Source of the DNA: Luteitalea pratensis
Lineage (GTDB): Bacteria; Acidobacteriota; Vicinamibacteria; Vicinamibacterales; Vicinamibacteraceae
Direction: 5' to 3'
Assembly (NCBI RefSeq): GCF_001618865.1
Contig: NZ_CP015136.1
Coordinates: 1,771,001 to 1,835,000, forward strand
DNA length: 64,000 bases
The stretch's first letter is position 1, and each line of letters starts with the position of its first letter. A model generated the notes under the pieces. It was not told where the DNA came from. It made no database searches and was given only the letters and a program-made list of their open reading frames with translations. Below are positions 33,762 through 41,605 of this stretch, in pieces. The position numbers and the translations under genes are program-made.

Positions 33762-34613
33762 ATGACGACACCACACACTCGCATCGCCGACATTGTCAAG
33801 ACCGCGCGCCAGCCGCTTCTCGAAGGATGGCTGGCCAGTCTCAGGGAAGCGCTCGGTGATGGCCGCATCGCGAATGCGGAGCTGACCCGGCAGGCGACCG
33901 ACCTGCTTGGCCTGATCACGCCTGCGCTCGAGACGGGGACCGACGTCCAGGGCGACGGCTGGGCGGCGACACGGCAGCTGCTCGAGGAGATCTCGCGGTC
34001 GCGGGCGGTGCAGGGCTTCAGCTGGACCGAGACCGCGACGTTCATCTTCTCGCTGAAGAAGGCGCTGTTTCACGAACTGCGACGTGCCTTCGGCGCTGAC
34101 GCCCAGGCGCTGGCCGACGCGACGTGGCAGGCCAACGTCGTCGTCGACGCGCTCGGGATGCACACCATCCACACGTTCCAACGCAGCCGCGAATCGATCA
34201 TCCTGCGCCAGCAGGAGGAGTTGCTCGAGCTCTCGACGCCGGTCGTGACCCTGTGGGACGGCATCCTGGCGCTGCCGATGATCGGCACCCTCGACAGCGC
34301 CCGCACGCAGGTGGTCATGGAGTCGCTGCTGCAGCGAATCGTCGAGACCGGCTCCGAGGTGGCGATTATCGACATCACCGGCGTCCCCACCGTCGACACC
34401 CTCGTCGCGCAGCACCTGCTCAAGACCGTGACGGCGATCCGCCTGATGGGAGCCGATTGCATCATCAGCGGCATCCGGCCGCAGATTGCGCAGACGATCG
34501 TCCACCTGGGGGTCGACCTGCGAGGCGTGATCACCAAGGCCAGCCTGGCCGACGCGCTCGCGGTGGCCTTCGATCGCTCTGGCCTCACGGTCGTGAAGCG
34601 GCACGCGTCGTAG
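33762..34613 (+). CDS. rsbR: RsbR-type stressosome scaffold protein
   Basis: A 283-residue protein with an N-terminal all-helical RsbRD-type sensor domain (about 8-150; FSWTETATFIFSLKKALFHE) and a C-terminal STAS domain (about 165-280). The STAS motifs DITGVPTVDTLVAQHLL and SGIRPQIAQTIVHLGVDL are those that carry the RsbT phosphorylation threonines in Bacillus RsbRA. In stressosomes RsbR and RsbS form a megadalton shell that releases RsbT kinase under stress. The signal sensed by this N-domain is unknown. ATG 33762 is the first start consistent with the domain. It is the first gene of a six-gene operon; rsbS begins 8 bp later. Confidence 0.9.
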   Translation: MTTPHTRIADIVKTARQPLLEGWLASLREALGDGRIANAELTRQATDLLGLITPALETGTDVQGDGWAATRQLLEEISRSRAVQGFSWTETATFIFSLKKALFHELRRAFGADAQALADATWQANVVVDALGMHTIHTFQRSRESIILRQQEELLELSTPVVTLWDGILALPMIGTLDSARTQVVMESLLQRIVETGSEVAIIDITGVPTVDTLVAQHLLKTVTAIRLMGADCIISGIRPQIAQTIVHLGVDLRGVITKASLADALAVAFDRSGLTVVKRHAS

Positions 34614-34621
34614 GGGGATCG

Positions 34622-35008
34622 GTGGAACGCATCCCGATCCTCCGGATGGGCAATCTCCTGCTCGTCACGATCCAGGTCGACATGCACGACCGCCTGGCGC
34701 TGACGCTGCAGGACGACCTCACGACCCAGATCGAGCGGCATGCTGCCAAGGGCGTGCTGCTCGATATCTCCTCGCTCGACGTCGTCGATTCCTTCATCGG
34801 CCGGATCATCGCGAACCTGTCGCGGATGGCCCGTATCCTCGATGCCCGGACGGTCGTCGTCGGCATGCGACCCGCGGTGGCGATCACCCTGGTCGAACTG
34901 GGCCTGAGCCTGCAGGGCGTGGAGACCGCGCTCGACGTCGAGCGCGGCATGCGCCTGCTGCGGCGGCCGCCAACTCCCGAGCCGCTCCGTGCCGATTATC
35001 AGGACTGA
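34622..35008 (+). CDS. rsbS: RsbS-type stressosome STAS antagonist
   Basis: A 128-residue single STAS domain (IPILRMGNLLLVTIQVDMHD, LLDISSLDVVDSFIGRIIA, VVVGMRPAVAITLVELGL). The Ser in VDSFIGR corresponds to Ser59 of Bacillus RsbS, the RsbT phosphorylation site that triggers release of RsbT. GTG 34622 lies a few bases after an AGGGGG Shine-Dalgarno. The gene overlaps rsbT by 20 bp, showing tight coupling of antagonist and kinase. Confidence 0.92.
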   Translation: MERIPILRMGNLLLVTIQVDMHDRLALTLQDDLTTQIERHAAKGVLLDISSLDVVDSFIGRIIANLSRMARILDARTVVVGMRPAVAITLVELGLSLQGVETALDVERGMRLLRRPPTPEPLRADYQD

Positions 35009-35393
35009 GTCGCTGCCGATCCGTTCGGAGCAGGACATCGTTTTCGCGCGCCAGGCGGTGCGACGCCTGACCCAGGAACTCGGCTTCGGCCTGGTCGATC
35101 AGACCAAGCTGGTGACCGCGACAAGCGAACTGGCCCGTAACGCGCTCGTCTACGGGCTGGGGGGGACCATGGTCTGCGAGCTGCTGGCCGAGGGCGCGCG
35201 CAACGGCCTGCGCCTGCAGTTCATCGACCAGGGGCCCGGCATTGCCGATCTCGCGCAGGCGATGAGCGACGGCTGGACCTCCGGCCAGGGCCTGGGACTC
35301 GGACTGTCGGGCGCCAAGCGCCTGGTCGGCGAGTTCTCGATCGAGTCCGTCCCCGGACAGGGGACGACGGTGACCATCGCGCGGTGGAGATGA
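34989..35393 (+). CDS. rsbT: RsbT-type serine/threonine switch kinase
   Basis: A 134-residue GHKL-type kinase. The N box is ATSELARNALVYG, G1 is DQGPGIAD and G2 is GLGLGLSGAKRLVGEF. RsbT phosphorylates RsbR and RsbS in the stressosome and then leaves to act on a partner protein, RsbU in Bacillus. There is no rsbU here, so the next genes in the operon (ATPase-phosphatase, histidine kinases) are the likely targets. GTG 34989 starts inside rsbS; the stop overlaps the next ATG (ATGA). Confidence 0.93.
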   Translation: MPIIRTESLPIRSEQDIVFARQAVRRLTQELGFGLVDQTKLVTATSELARNALVYGLGGTMVCELLAEGARNGLRLQFIDQGPGIADLAQAMSDGWTSGQGLGLGLSGAKRLVGEFSIESVPGQGTTVTIARWR

Positions 35394-36409
35394 TGGACCC
35401 CGTGCAGGTCTGCATCCCGGTGTCGGACCCGAGCCAGGTGGGCGAAGTGCGTCGCGCCGTCGCGCGGATGGCACAGCCGCTGACGATGTCGGAGTCACGC
35501 CGGGGCGACGCGTCGATCATCGCCAACGAACTGGCGACCAACCTCGTGCGCCACGCACGCGACGGCCGGATACTGCTGCAGGTGATGTCACACGGGGCTT
35601 CCCGCTGGCTCGAACTGCTGTCGGTGGATGGCGGCCCGGGGATGGCCGACGTGCAGCGATGCCTGCGGGATGGATACTCGACCGGCGGTACGCCGGGCAC
35701 CGGGTTGGGCGCGGTGAAGCGGCTGTCCGATGAATTCGACGTCCACTCCATGCCCGGAAAGGGGACGGTGATCGTGTCGCGGGTCGCCACCCACACGGCG
35801 CTGCCCAACGTGTTCGCGGTCGGCGCGGTCTGCCTGACCGCTCAGGGCGAGGATGTCTGCGGCGACACGTGGCGCAGCGTCGAGCGCGAACGGGAACTCG
35901 CCGTGATGGTGGCCGACGGCCTCGGCCATGGACCCGACGCGGCTGTCGCGGCCAATCTCGCAGGCGTCGCCTTCGAGGGCGAACCGTTCGCATCGCCAGA
36001 GCAGTTCTACCAGAGCGCGCACCGGTCGCTGAACGGCAGCCGCGGCGCGGCCCTGGCGCGCGCGGTGATCGGGTCGACCGGTGAGGTGCAGTACTCCGGC
36101 ATCGGCAACATCGCCGGGAGCCTGGTCGGCAGCGAGCGCAGCCGCGGCCTGGCCAGCCAGAACGGGACGGTGGGTGTCCAGATCCGGAGCCATGTCTCGA
36201 CGTACTCGCACGTGATGCCGGCGCCGGGGGTGTTGCTGATGCACTCGGACGGGATTACCAGCCGCTGGTCGTTCGACCAGTACCCCGGCCTGCTGCTCCG
36301 ACATCCGGCGGTGATTGCCGGCGTCCTCAGTCGCGACTTCGTGCGCGGCCGGGACGACGCGACGATGCTGGTCGTGAGCCGGTCGCGAAAGGACGACATC
36401 CATGTCTGA
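35390..36409 (+). CDS. GHKL ATPase fused to RsbX-like PP2C phosphatase
   Basis: A 339-residue two-domain protein. The N-terminal half (about 1-135) is an RsbT/RsbW-like ATPase with IIANELATNLVRHA, VDGGPGMAD and GTGLGAVKRLSDEF. The C-terminal half is an RsbX/SpoIIE-type PP2C phosphatase with VMVADGLGHGPDA, LMHSDGITSRW and GRDDATMLVV, giving the Asp metal ligands. In Bacillus RsbX dephosphorylates RsbR/RsbS to reset the stressosome. Here a second kinase-like domain on the same chain would combine switching on and off. ATG 35390 overlaps the rsbT stop; ATG 35393 is equally possible. Its end overlaps the histidine kinase start by 8 bp. Confidence 0.88.
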   Translation: MMDPVQVCIPVSDPSQVGEVRRAVARMAQPLTMSESRRGDASIIANELATNLVRHARDGRILLQVMSHGASRWLELLSVDGGPGMADVQRCLRDGYSTGGTPGTGLGAVKRLSDEFDVHSMPGKGTVIVSRVATHTALPNVFAVGAVCLTAQGEDVCGDTWRSVERERELAVMVADGLGHGPDAAVAANLAGVAFEGEPFASPEQFYQSAHRSLNGSRGAALARAVIGSTGEVQYSGIGNIAGSLVGSERSRGLASQNGTVGVQIRSHVSTYSHVMPAPGVLLMHSDGITSRWSFDQYPGLLLRHPAVIAGVLSRDFVRGRDDATMLVVSRSRKDDIHV

Positions 36410-37349
36410 CGTGGCGGGGCCCTCCACGACCGACCTGATCGAGCAACTGCGAGCGCAACTCGCGCAGGCCGTGGACCTTGTACGCCAGCACGAGGCGACG
36501 ATCGCGGCACTGTCTGTCGAACTGGACGAGACCAACCACGGCGTGGTCGCGCTGTACGCGGAATTGGACGACAATGCCATCCGGCTGCGCGAAGTCTCGG
36601 ATCTGAAGAGCCGTTTCCTGTCCTACATGAGCCACGAGTTCCGGACGCCGTTAGGGTCCATCCTCAGCATCGCCCGGCTGCTGCTGGCGCAGATGGACGG
36701 CCCACTCACAGCGGAGCAGCGTACGCAGGTCACGTTCATCAACACCTCGGCATCGGAGCTCACCGAGATGGTCAACGACTTGCTCGACCTTGCCAAGGTG
36801 GAAGCGGGGCGTATCACCATCTCTCCGGCATGGTTCGACATGGTGGACCTGTTTGCCGCGCTGCGCGGCATGTTCAAGCCGATCCTCGCCTCGACCGACG
36901 TGTCGCTGGTCTTCGAGGAACCGCACGGCGTGCCCGCGATCTTCACCGACGACCGCAAGCTCTCGCAGATCCTCCGTAACTTCATCTCGAATGCGCTCAA
37001 GTTCACGACGCGCGGCGAAGTGCGGGTGACCGCCACGTTCGAGGCCGGCGATCGGGTGCGGTTCTCGGTGAGCGACACGGGCATCGGCATTCCGCCAGAG
37101 CATCTCCCGGCGCTGTTCCAGGACTACGCCCAGGTGGACTCGTCGCTGCAGAAGCGCCTGCGCGGTACCGGGCTGGGCCTCTCGCTGAGCAAGAAGCTCG
37201 CGGTCATGCTCGGCGGCGACGTGATGGTGACCAGCCAGGTTGGCCAGGGTTCGACGTTTTCGGTCGTCGTCCCTTCACGGATCCCGGGACACGAGCCGTC
37301 GCACGCGCCCCGTGCGCCTCGCGATCAGGCAGGCAACGATGTCCGGTGA
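36402..37349 (+). CDS. Soluble sensor histidine kinase
   Basis: A 315-residue cytoplasmic kinase without membrane helices or PAS domain. An N-terminal coiled coil (about 10-70; LIEQLRAQLAQAVDLVRQHE) leads to the phospho-acceptor His78 in SYMSHEFRTPLG, then the N box (ILRNFISNALKFT), G1 (VSDTGIGIPPEH), F box (LFQDYAQVD) and G2 (GTGLGLSLSKKLA). With no sensory domain of its own, its input is presumably the coiled coil, possibly via stressosome proteins encoded upstream. It overlaps both neighbours. Confidence 0.9.
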   Translation: MSDVAGPSTTDLIEQLRAQLAQAVDLVRQHEATIAALSVELDETNHGVVALYAELDDNAIRLREVSDLKSRFLSYMSHEFRTPLGSILSIARLLLAQMDGPLTAEQRTQVTFINTSASELTEMVNDLLDLAKVEAGRITISPAWFDMVDLFAALRGMFKPILASTDVSLVFEEPHGVPAIFTDDRKLSQILRNFISNALKFTTRGEVRVTATFEAGDRVRFSVSDTGIGIPPEHLPALFQDYAQVDSSLQKRLRGTGLGLSLSKKLAVMLGGDVMVTSQVGQGSTFSVVVPSRIPGHEPSHAPRAPRDQAGNDVR

Positions 37350-39312
37350 ACACGAGGCCTCGGTGCTCGTCGTCGACGACAACGCGGCGACCCGTTACGC
37401 CACCAGTCACGTCCTCGAGGCGGTAGGGTTCAGCGTGGTGACGGCGGCCAGCGGCTACGAGGCGCTGGACCTGGCCCGGCGCGATCGGCCCGATCTGATT
37501 GTCCTGGACATCAACCTGCCGGACATCGACGGCTTCCAGGTCTGCCGGCAGCTGCGCGCTCTGCCGGAGACACGGCGGACGCCGATCACGTATCTCTCGG
37601 CGACCTTCGTCGACGATGCCGACAAGATCCTGGGCGTGGATGCCGGTGCCGATGGCTACCTCACGCACCCGGTCGAAGCGCCGGTGCTGATCGGCACGGT
37701 ACGGGCGCTGTTGCGCGCGCGCCGCGCAGAAGATGCCGTGCAGGAGAGCGAGGCCCGTTTCAAGGCCGTGTTCGACTGCGCGATGAACGGCATCGCGTTG
37801 TTGACCGAAGACCTCGTCTTCCTCGACGTCAACCCGGCGATGTCGCAGATGCTCGAGCGCGAGCGTGACGCCATCGTCGGCCGGCACCTGTCGGTCTTCA
37901 GTCCCAACGATCGGCACATCGACATCGCGGAGATCACCGCGGCCCTCAACGAGACGGGACGGTGGCGCGGCACCGCGCCGCTGCTCAGCGCCGGCGGCGC
38001 TCACGTCGAACTCGAATGGCACGTGTCGCGCGACAGTGTCGGCGACGCCCGCCTCGCTATCGTCAGCGACGTGACGCAGCGAGTCGCGGCGGAAGCGGAG
38101 CGGGAGCGGTTGCTCACCCTCGAACGCCTCGCGCGCGCGGAGGCCGAAGACGCCAATCGGCTCAAGGACGATTTCCTGGCGGCGCTCTCGCACGAACTGC
38201 GAACCCCGCTCAATGCCATTGTCGGCTTCTCGCGGCTGCTCCAGCGATCGCCGCTCATCGCCAACGACCCGGACGCGCTCAATCGCGTCAACGCGATCGA
38301 ACGCAACGCGTGGGTGCAGGCGCGCCTGATCTCGGACCTGCTCGACGTCTCGCGCATCACCGCCGGCAAGCTGGAACTGGATCGGCAGCGGCTCAGCCCG
38401 GCGGATGCGGTGGCGGCGGCGCTGGCAAGCCTGCAGGGCCTGTCCAAGCTCAGGGGCGTGACGATCAACGCCAATCTCGATCGCGGCGTCGAAACCATCT
38501 GGTGGGACCCGTCGCGTTTCCAGCAGGTGGTGTGGAACCTGGTGGATAACGCGGTGAAGTTCTCCGCCAACGGCGGTGTCGTCGAGGTGGACCTGACGCA
38601 GACGCCCACCGCCGTCGAATTCAGGGTGACCGATCACGGTCAGGGCATCTCGCCAGAATTCCTGCCGCACGTCTTCGAGCGTTTCCGCCAGGAGCAGTCA
38701 TCGGCGCGACGCGGCTACGGCGGGCTCGGCCTCGGCCTGGCGATCGTCCACGAACTGGTGACGGCACACGGCAGTACGATCACGGTGAGCAGCGCCGGCG
38801 AGGGACAGGGCGCGACGTTCCTCGTGCGGTTGCCGCGCGTGTTCGTGGCCGGCACCGTTGCCGACGGCACGACGCAGCCGATCGGGGCGGGGCTCGACCT
38901 GGCCGGCAGGCGCATCCTGGTCGTGGAGGACAACGAGGACGCGCGCGCCCTCCTGCAGGAAGTGCTGGGGGAGGTGCGCGGCCAGGTGCGCGGCGTCGGC
39001 TCTGTCGCGCAGGCGCTCGAGGTCCTCGACACGTTCGATCCCGACTTGCTGATCAGCGACCTCGCGATGCCCGGCAGTGACGGCTTCGATCTGATTCGCG
39101 AGGTGCGTGAGCGCGGCTGGGACGCGCGACGACTGCCGGCCGTGGCGCTTTCAGCATTTGCGCGTGAGGAGGACCGCCAACGCGCCCTCGAGGCGGGCTA
39201 CCAGCTTCACTTCGGCAAGCCACCCGACCTGACGGCGCTGCTGACCCAGCTGGCGGGGTTGCTGGGGCCGACCGCCCCCGCGCCGTCCCGGACGGACCCG
39301 CACGCCAACTGA
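37339..39312 (+). CDS. Hybrid histidine kinase (REC-PAS-HisKA-HATPase-REC)
   Basis: A 657-residue protein. The first receiver has phospho-acceptor Asp57 (LIVLDINLPDIDGFQ), a PAS domain follows at about 130-250 (ARFKAVFDCAMNGIALLTED), then a kinase core with His285 (ALSHELRTPLNAIVGFSRLL) and GYGGLGLGLAIVHELV, and a C-terminal receiver with Asp574 (LLISDLAMPGSDGFDL). The N-terminal receiver can accept phosphate from the upstream kinase. There is no DNA-binding output domain, so the relay must continue to a partner outside the operon. ATG 37339 overlaps the kinase gene by 11 bp. Confidence 0.92.
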   Translation: MSGEHEASVLVVDDNAATRYATSHVLEAVGFSVVTAASGYEALDLARRDRPDLIVLDINLPDIDGFQVCRQLRALPETRRTPITYLSATFVDDADKILGVDAGADGYLTHPVEAPVLIGTVRALLRARRAEDAVQESEARFKAVFDCAMNGIALLTEDLVFLDVNPAMSQMLERERDAIVGRHLSVFSPNDRHIDIAEITAALNETGRWRGTAPLLSAGGAHVELEWHVSRDSVGDARLAIVSDVTQRVAAEAERERLLTLERLARAEAEDANRLKDDFLAALSHELRTPLNAIVGFSRLLQRSPLIANDPDALNRVNAIERNAWVQARLISDLLDVSRITAGKLELDRQRLSPADAVAAALASLQGLSKLRGVTINANLDRGVETIWWDPSRFQQVVWNLVDNAVKFSANGGVVEVDLTQTPTAVEFRVTDHGQGISPEFLPHVFERFRQEQSSARRGYGGLGLGLAIVHELVTAHGSTITVSSAGEGQGATFLVRLPRVFVAGTVADGTTQPIGAGLDLAGRRILVVEDNEDARALLQEVLGEVRGQVRGVGSVAQALEVLDTFDPDLLISDLAMPGSDGFDLIREVRERGWDARRLPAVALSAFAREEDRQRALEAGYQLHFGKPPDLTALLTQLAGLLGPTAPAPSRTDPHAN

Positions 39313-41605
39313 CAAGAACTCGACGACGAGATTCGCGAGTATGTTCGAATGGCCACCGATCGCCACCGGTCGGCCGGCATGAACCATGACGATGCGCTGC
39401 GGGCTGCGCGCGCGGCGTTCGGCAGCATCGAGGCGGTCAAGGATCGTGTTCGCGACGTAGGATGGGAATCGATGTTGGACAATCTCCTCCAGGACGTTCG
39501 CTATGCCCTCCGCATGCTCACGAAATCGCCGGCCTTCGCGGCGGTGGCGGTGCTGTCGTTAGCCCTCGGAATCGGGGCCAACGCTTCTGTCTTCACGCTG
39601 ATCTGCGGAGAGTTGTTCCCGGTCCTCACCTACCCCCACGCGACGCGGCTGGTGAAATTGGTCGGCTTCACGAACGGCGCCAGCACACCCACCCGATGCG
39701 GTTGGACAGCGCATTACCTTGAATGACGAACCGCACACAATCATCGGAGTTGTCCACCCGGACCCGTGGCTGCTGCCAGAGGTCTCAAAGGTTTACGTAC
39801 CGGCGATGTTCGACGCTTCGGAGTCGACGCGGGCGCGGAACAATTTCGACTGGGAAGGTTATGCCAGGTTGCGTCCTGGGGCCGCGCCCGAAGCCATCGG
39901 TGTGGAAGCGGCCTCGGCCTCCTGGCCGATGCGACGCACCGGGAATGGATGGCGCACTCTGCATGGCGTTCCCCTGACGGAAACCGTGTTCGTCGACCGC
40001 GAGGAAAACCGCCAGGCACTGCTGCTCCTGCAGACGACCGTTGGATTTGTGCTCTTCATCGCATGCATGAATGTGGGAAGTCTCCTGCTCGCGCGCGCCA
40101 CAGCGAGACAGCATGAATTCACGCTACGGGCCGCCCTCGGTGCGGGCCGCGGCCGGCTGTTTCGTCAGTTGCTGGCAGAAAGCCTCCTGCTTGCGTCGGC
40201 GGCGGGCATCGGTGGATTGCTGCTCTCGGTTGGTGGGAGCCGCGTCGTCGCAAATGTCTGGGGCTGGCACCCGACGGCCTCCTTCGACCCGCGCGTGCTG
40301 GCCTTTACAAGTGCAGTCGGTCTTGGAACCGCGATCCTCGCGAGCCTCGCACCCGCACGCCACCTTCTTCAGCACTCTGACGAGACGGCGCTGAGGGAGC
40401 ACGGGCGAACCGCGGGCGTCAATCAGAAATCTCGTCGGATATTGCAGGCGCTGCTCGTGTGCGAAATCTCTCTTGCACTCGCGCTGCTGCTCGGCGCCGG
40501 GGCGTTGATCAAGAGTCTCTCCGTTCGACTGCAGAGGACGCCGGGCTTCGCCACTGCGAACTTGTTGCTGGCGCGCACCCATTTTCTGGGTGCGCGATAC
40601 GCCGCCGCGGGCACGAAGGCCGAGTTCATTCGCCGGGCGGTTGACCAAATCGAGTCACTGCCCGGCGTACGCGCTGCAGCCGTCGTTGATCCGTATCCCC
40701 CCGCCGGTGACGCGGCATTTCCCGTCCGCGCGGCCGGCGCTCACGTGTTCGGCGACGACCCGCCGCTCGTCCGGCATCGCTCAGTGACAGTCGGATACGT
40801 TCGTACGCTCGCGATACGCATGATCCGCGGTCGTGACTTCGACCGGCGCGATGTGGGATCGGTTCCCGGCAAGGTGATCATCAACGAGGCCATGGCCCGC
40901 CGATTCTGGCCGGGCGAGAATCCCGTCGGCGGATCAATCGCGACGACGCGCGGTGGGGCGCCGGCGGTGCTGGACGTCATTGGTGTCGTTGCTACGGCCG
41001 ACAACAACATCGAGTACCGGAATGAGCCGCGGCCCGAAATCATCGAGCTCGCTGCCGTCCCATCGCAGGCGCCGTGGTTCATGATTCGCACCGATCGGGA
41101 CGCGATGCAGGTGCTTCCGTCAATTCGTGCGGCTGTCCTGGCTGTCGATCCCAATCAGCCGCTGGCAGCGGTTCGGACAGTTGAAGGATGGATTGCTCAA
41201 GAATCAGCGGGCCATCGCTCACTCAGTCAATTCCTCGCGAGTTTTGCGGTGCTCGCACTTGCGCTGGTCGCCATCGGGATCTATGGGATCGTCTCGTATA
41301 CCGCTTGGTTGCGCCGGCGCGAGGTGGGCGTGCGAATTGCACTCGGCGCGAGCCGGGCTTCGATCGTTGGCCTGTTCCTCGGAGACACTGTGCGGTTATT
41401 GATCGTGTCGATTCCACTGGGCCTTGCTTCTTCTTGGGCCTTGACGCGCTGGATGGCCGCCCTGCTGTTCGGCGTTGGGCCCGCCGAACCGACGGTTCTC
41501 GTTACTGCTTGCGGGTGCGTAGTCGCCGCCATCTCGCTGGCGGCGATACGGCCCGTCTGGCAGTGTTCGCGTACCGATCCTGCTTCCGTGTTGCGCGCGG
41601 AGTGA
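39313..41605 (+). pseudogene. ADOP/MacB-type ABC transporter permease, 5'-truncated with internal deletion
   Basis: Homology to ADOP permeases begins 1 bp-scale after the hybrid-kinase stop (QELDDEIREYVRMATDRHR at 39313) with no start codon for the full family N-terminus. The first frame reads through the first membrane helix (FAAVAVLSLALGIGANASVF) to a stop at 39726. The second frame resumes within the periplasmic domain (VGQRITLNDEPHTIIGV, from about 39699), so roughly 100-120 codons of the MacB periplasmic core are missing and the frame is shifted. The remainder carries the other FtsX-type helices (LFIACMNVGSLLLARATARQ) and ends at 41605. A truncated protein from 39719 is possible but unlikely to function. 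Confidence 0.85.

Follow-up and report, generated by a model that had tools for sequence, protein, structure and literature searches.

A conserved coil motif on the output kinase of a Luteitalea pratensis stressosome operon with fused RsbX, a candidate dock for a switch kinase

The stretch analysed here (the window) is 64,000 nucleotides of the Luteitalea pratensis genome, which is a single contig of 7,480,314 bases, and within it six open reading frames (ORFs) on the forward strand, at 33762-39312, encode a putative stressosome followed by two kinases. All six are present and open, and neighbouring genes overlap or lie 8 bp apart:

33762..34613, + strand: RsbR, with an RsbRD_N sensor and a STAS domain (Pfam); predicted phosphosites T213 and T245
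34622..35008, + strand: RsbS, GTG start 8 bp after RsbR; STAS domain (Pfam); predicted phosphosite S57
34989..35393, + strand: RsbT, GTG start, overlapping RsbS; GHKL switch kinase (Pfam HATPase)
35384..36409, + strand: X, overlapping RsbT; an RsbT-like ATPase fused to an RsbX-type PP2C phosphatase (Pfam HATPase_c_2 and SpoIIE)
36402..37349, + strand: histidine kinase (HK) with no sensor domain, overlapping X; Pfam HisKA and HATPase_c; phospho-acceptor H78
36519..36575, + strand: coil motif ELDETNHGVVALYAELDDN, HK residues 40-58, marked from motif conservation; proposed docking site
37339..39312, + strand: hybrid kinase REC-PAS-HK-REC, ATG start, overlapping HK; Pfam REC-PAS-HisKA-HATPase_c-REC; D57, H285, D574 and H110

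A sequence-only reading of this DNA had proposed a six-gene stressosome operon at these positions, linked to two kinases in place of a sigma-B cascade and closing without an output domain. Each of these points holds: the ORFs are open, tightly packed and assigned their domains by Pfam, neither the ORFs nor Pfam reveal rsbU, rsbV, rsbW or sigB within the operon, and Pfam finds no DNA-binding or other output domain at the end of the chain in the operon. The two acceptors it had named, His78 and Asp57, are likewise correct; both kinases have their acceptors intact (H78 in HK; D57, H285 and D574 in the hybrid). With rsbX directly after rsbRST, as an RSTX (RsbR-RsbS-RsbT-RsbX) module requires, membership in the RSTX kind of stressosome is supported. 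Coupling through RsbU_N is absent, with no Pfam match in HK, the hybrid or the rest of the operon, nor anywhere in the genome, and on this result we rejected an RsbU_N hidden in either kinase. A sigma-B cascade elsewhere in the genome was also rejected: besides the lack of RsbU_N there was no SigBFG match above the cut-off (14 fell below it), though an unlinked trio of STAS, HATPase_c_2 and SpoIIE lies 2 Mb from the operon (L037:8625-11109).

By structure comparison RsbS matches solved RsbS chains and RsbR matches solved RsbR chains; RsbT matches SpoIIAB chains alone among solved structures, weakly. In related sequences the first predicted phosphosite of RsbR is T or S in 76/76 rows and the second is T in 76/76, the predicted phosphosite of RsbS is Ser in 79/79, and the active-site residues of RsbT are retained in 79/79. 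Two STAS proteins with Ser/Thr sites and an intact RsbT thus make up, as judged by gene content, a stressosome core. X departs from a single-domain PP2C RsbX by carrying an extra ATPase domain, according to both Pfam and a single-chain structure prediction that gives two domains (pLDDT 92.8, pTM 0.92). The phosphatase half is nearest to 3zt9 (PDB title 'The bacterial stressosome ...') and to B. subtilis RsbX (3w40), the N-terminal half resembles SpoIIAB, and 3ke6 is also among the structure matches. SypE of Vibrio fischeri and Rv1364c likewise hold a GHKL Ser kinase and a PP2C phosphatase in one chain, but their domain order and context differ: the phosphatase of X is RsbX-like, and its operon is that of a stressosome.

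In stressosomes described so far the core holds RsbT until stress, when RsbT phosphorylates it, detaches and acts downstream, while RsbX resets the core (PMC9237108). The window operon resembles the Gram-negative minimal RSTX module of V. vulnificus and others (PMC9237108), in which R-S-T-X is followed by two-component genes without a sigma-B cascade; HisKA/REC outputs after RSTX modules were already published there, and according to Heinz et al. RsbU_N is undetectable in most of the proteins encoded downstream of the RSTX modules that they studied (PMC9237108). It differs in that the X of those modules (globin-sensor group) is a single-domain PP2C protein, whereas here X bears an ATPase and HK a coil. 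With the SigB operon of B. subtilis and its RsbT-RsbU pair (PMC12143880) it shares intact RsbR, RsbS and RsbT, an RsbX-type phosphatase and a linker helix as the proposed RsbT contact, but it lacks RsbU_N, RsbV, RsbW and SigB and has a histidine kinase as output. The Moorella stressosome with a diguanylate cyclase output (PMC12143880) is alike in its non-sigma output, and its phosphatase is the 3zt9 to which the phosphatase half of X is closest, but the Moorella output has RsbU_N and the window operon has none. RsbR is phosphorylated in Xanthomonas campestris on entering stationary phase (cited in PMC9237108), and our set of relatives includes Xanthomonas species with the present operon class (L108, L111, L113 and L114).

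The model of HK (single chain; pLDDT 91.1, pTM 0.77) has a single helix, residues 9-95, running into the phosphorylation domain, and neither Pfam nor the model reveals any other N-terminal or input domain. In the kinases encoded after X, one constant piece stands between a variable N-terminus and the kinase core, the 19 residues ELxxTN[R/Q/H]G[V/I][V/L]ALYAEL[D/E], which are the only conserved non-catalytic segment of HK. Over these 19 positions the mean entropy in 32 kinases less than 65% identical is 0.50; in the same kinases the phosphorylation box has 0.74, the catalytic domain 1.66 and the stretch of 25 residues preceding the coil 1.94. The comparison somewhat flatters the coil because the 32 were taken from 68 kinases that a motif pattern had selected. 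Among 110 coil segments found by profile, T is present in 106, N in 107, G in 107, Y in 103 and E in 104, and N is followed by R in 77 and by Q in 22.

Five aligned X proteins served to scan the species genomes of GTDB for relatives (400 relatives, best 80 loci kept), and domains were mapped with custom-built hidden Markov models in 82 loci, namely the window, L035, L036 and 79 of the best 80 (L109, a copy of L036, was left out). X is fused in 82/82, a figure partly built in because the query was itself a fused X; a coil kinase occurs in 79/82. The order R-S-T-X-coil kinase-REC-first kinase is found in 56 of the 82 loci, across several phyla, and we therefore rejected the suggestion, made from the sequence alone, that it is unusual to find a kinase-phosphatase fusion alongside two relay kinases: among near relatives of X this is the common form. 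The loci fall in Pseudomonadota (60), Acidobacteriota (10, including the window and two genomes of the same order), Planctomycetota (4), Bacteroidota (2) and six more phyla (1 each), and Deinococcus radiodurans MP1 carries such an operon. In 60 of the 82 the output protein begins with a fused RsbT-like ATPase (TH). The window kinase is without TH and belongs to a TH-less clade of 18 rows (SH-aLRT 97) in a quick tree of 78 of 102 kinases that has SH-aLRT support only and one very long branch (L075); named members of this clade are Pseudomonas, Rhodanobacteraceae, Lysobacteraceae (Xanthomonas and kin), Comamonadaceae and Burkholderiaceae. A GGDEF protein, not a kinase, carries the fused RsbT-like domain in some operons with fused X (L200:6883-8034, L201:5869-7020, L062:2751-4799).

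We propose that RsbT released from the stressosome docks on the HK helix and switches HK, which in turn feeds the hybrid, and we give this reading a probability of roughly 0.47. The sequence evidence for it consists of the gene order, the intact residues, the conservation and specificity of the motif, and a single case of its decay; docking, the direction of the switch and phosphotransfer are steps that we infer. RsbR would sense a cue and build the STAS core with RsbS. Upon stress, RsbT on the core would phosphorylate RsbS (S57) and RsbR (T213, T245) and then be released, and the PP2C half of X would dephosphorylate both and so reset the core, as homology and intact residues suggest for each step. 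Free RsbT could then dock on ELxxTN(R/H)GVVALYAELD of the N-terminal helix, plausibly working as RsbT does on the RsbU linker in B. subtilis, and docking would alter the HK dimer and its autophosphorylation at H78. HK may pass the phosphate to D57 in the first receiver of the hybrid, and H285 and D574 of the hybrid may follow; since the operon holds no output domain, a response regulator encoded elsewhere would have to finish the chain. Most relatives have TH fused before the helix, the window lineage having a kinase without TH in which the helix is kept. As to the motif in general, we see an even chance that ELxxTNRGVVALYAELD is a transferable dock for a switch kinase, be it RsbT or the ATPase of X, that replaces RsbU_N in a large multi-phylum class of stressosomes and marks their outputs.

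That the genes merely share a transcript, the kinases having their own input, would agree with the PAS domain that Pfam finds in the hybrid, but we consider it improbable in view of the same gene order in 56 of 82 loci in several phyla and of an HK that has no other input domain. In the hybrid itself the usual Lys of the first receiver is replaced by H110. Related rows have the Asp in 64/64 and the usual Lys in 1/64 (H in 21, E in 13, A in 11, Q in 11 and D in 7); with that Lys absent from 63 of the 64, this atypical receiver may hold phosphate or act structurally.

Outputs were classed in 72 loci from two phylum samples, of which 13 without X were left out (10 with an RsbU_N gene, none with a coil). 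The remaining 59 comprise 29 with fused X and a separate RsbT, 22 with single-domain X and 8 with fused X and no separate RsbT. The 29 divide into 22 with coil, four with TH without coil, none with RsbU_N and three others, these last including L215 and L276, whose X looks like a fusion of RsbT and phosphatase. The 22 divide into 12 with RsbU_N (one of them, L233, found through the RsbU_N search only), one with TH, none with coil and nine others; the eight have TH in two and other outputs in six. A further 15 genomes with fused X likewise have no RsbU_N. Coil/TH and RsbU_N therefore stand in for each other (Fisher test of RsbU_N against coil/TH, P = 3e-9, to be read as an association and not as independent events, the loci sharing ancestry). 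Such mutual exclusion would be expected if each served the output protein as its input port. In a literature search no paper was recognised that reports the coil motif, a fusion of TH to these kinases, or a split of outputs by X fusion.

The same counts bear on the partner of the coil. The sequence-only reading had allowed that RsbT switches either the fused protein or the coiled-coil kinase; the conserved helix motif strengthens the kinase option, and involvement of the fused protein stays as the main rival. It would have the ATPase of X, not RsbT, dock on the coil, so that X, as a regulator with two heads, would both reset the core and switch HK. We keep it as a strong rival because RsbT occurs with both output classes while the X-fused ATPase changes with the coil: operons with single-domain X have RsbT in 21 of 22 cases and a coil in none. 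The ATPase residues of X are moreover intact in 82/82 rows, and in L035 (genome G038) X and an intact motif persist although R, S and T are absent and the kinase itself is broken. Nevertheless we rate docking by X as rather unlikely: its association with the coil may stem from the shared ancestry of the operon class, the GGDEF outputs of fused-X operons are without the motif, and RsbT is the known messenger in stressosomes studied so far.

Specificity of the motif was examined in three settings. Of 72,556 plasmid records searched with 54 residues of the coil, 24 matched, 15 of them from D. radiodurans; in the ten examined (one of D. radiodurans), R, S and T stand beside the coil in 10/10 and X was seen in nine, while in the tenth X would span the record start. 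A coil profile, in searches that score limited candidates per genome and may miss some, matched 13 of 299 genomes of one phylum, all 13 with fused X at most 2 kb away, and 13 of 396 Acidobacteriota genomes, with fused X adjoining in 12, so that 25 of the 26 coil-bearing genomes in the two samples have fused X beside the coil. In the genome of the window HK is the sole match. The motif is, then, nearly confined to fused-X operons.

The exception is a congener (G001) with a coil-type kinase and a hybrid, both open, at L303:7728-12012, with no R, S, T or X near the pair and no RsbS in its genome. There TN has become SA and VVALY has become MAALH, the kinase domains are intact, and a different stretch, PAS-like by eye and without a Pfam match, precedes the decayed coil. 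Losing a binding partner would be expected to leave such a pattern, which is seen here in a single case. These observations also bear on a further possibility, that RsbT (or X) phosphorylates Ser/Thr of HK or the hybrid in brief contact, as Heinz et al. suggested for outputs without RsbU_N (PMC9237108), the coil being a mere dimer helix tuned to its own kinase core. We think this less probable still than docking by X, since the motif decays in G001 though the kinase domains are intact, is nearly limited to fused-X operons, and is kept ahead of different kinase types (L066, L073, L084, L092, L095, L107 and L115); it is also kept before a different stretch, GAF-like as judged by eye, in L075. 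With a motif nearly confined to fused-X operons and decayed in a congener that has no RsbS, signalling without RsbU_N becomes testable by point changes in one short helix, for which the D. radiodurans MP1 copy is a tractable place.

Docking of RsbT on the coil gains a lead from the RsbU linker, in which R91 pairs with D92 of RsbT and a binding mutant is rescued by several changes, those at T89, G92 and Q94 included (PMC12143880). The T-N-R-G-V-V spacing of the coil matches T89/R91/G92 of RsbU, most coils reading T-x-R-G-x-x, and by a rough hand estimate three such matches would arise by chance about once in 100. Several observations weigh on the other side. The coil of the window reads T-N-H-G-V-V, with H where RsbU has R91, and T-x-R-G at one fixed place in RsbU_N linkers was sought in 28 proteins of relatives and not found. 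Heinz et al. saw no two-hybrid interaction between VvRsbT and VvD1, which the gene after the Vibrio module encodes (PMC9237108). The motif is missing from the TH-GGDEF outputs L062, L200 and L201 and from two Cytophagales (L102 and L104), and the coil counts are not independent because all coil kinases share ancestry. To these belong the kept motif of L035 and the occurrence of RsbT with both output classes, set out above, the latter favouring X as partner.

As to history, the plasmid match of highest identity among those listed, at 68.6%, is a Variovorax operon with the same six genes, against 50% identity to a relative from the window's own order. In four congeners (G001-G004) there is no RsbS, and X gives one weak match (E 7e-4, in G001) and none in G002-G004. 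Horizontal transfer would be the likeliest history of the window operon. A 29-kb plasmid of Xanthomonas vasicola, pXVH29, carries the whole six-gene operon (L161).

Three further T-X pairs, with neither R and S nor kinases, lie in the genome of the window. They are about 81-83% identical to those of the operon and sit in repeated segments that have BrkB, KaiC-like and pyridoxamine-oxidase-like genes nearby:

L032:9537-10945, - strand: T and X both intact
L033:9113-10360, + strand: T broken; the DNA match extends 42 bp past X into the HK gene
L034:9356-10280, + strand: X broken

Downstream of the operon, at 39349-41605 of the window, an FtsX/MacB-type permease region is split over two ORFs, with a Pfam match in the second only, and may be a broken or shortened gene.

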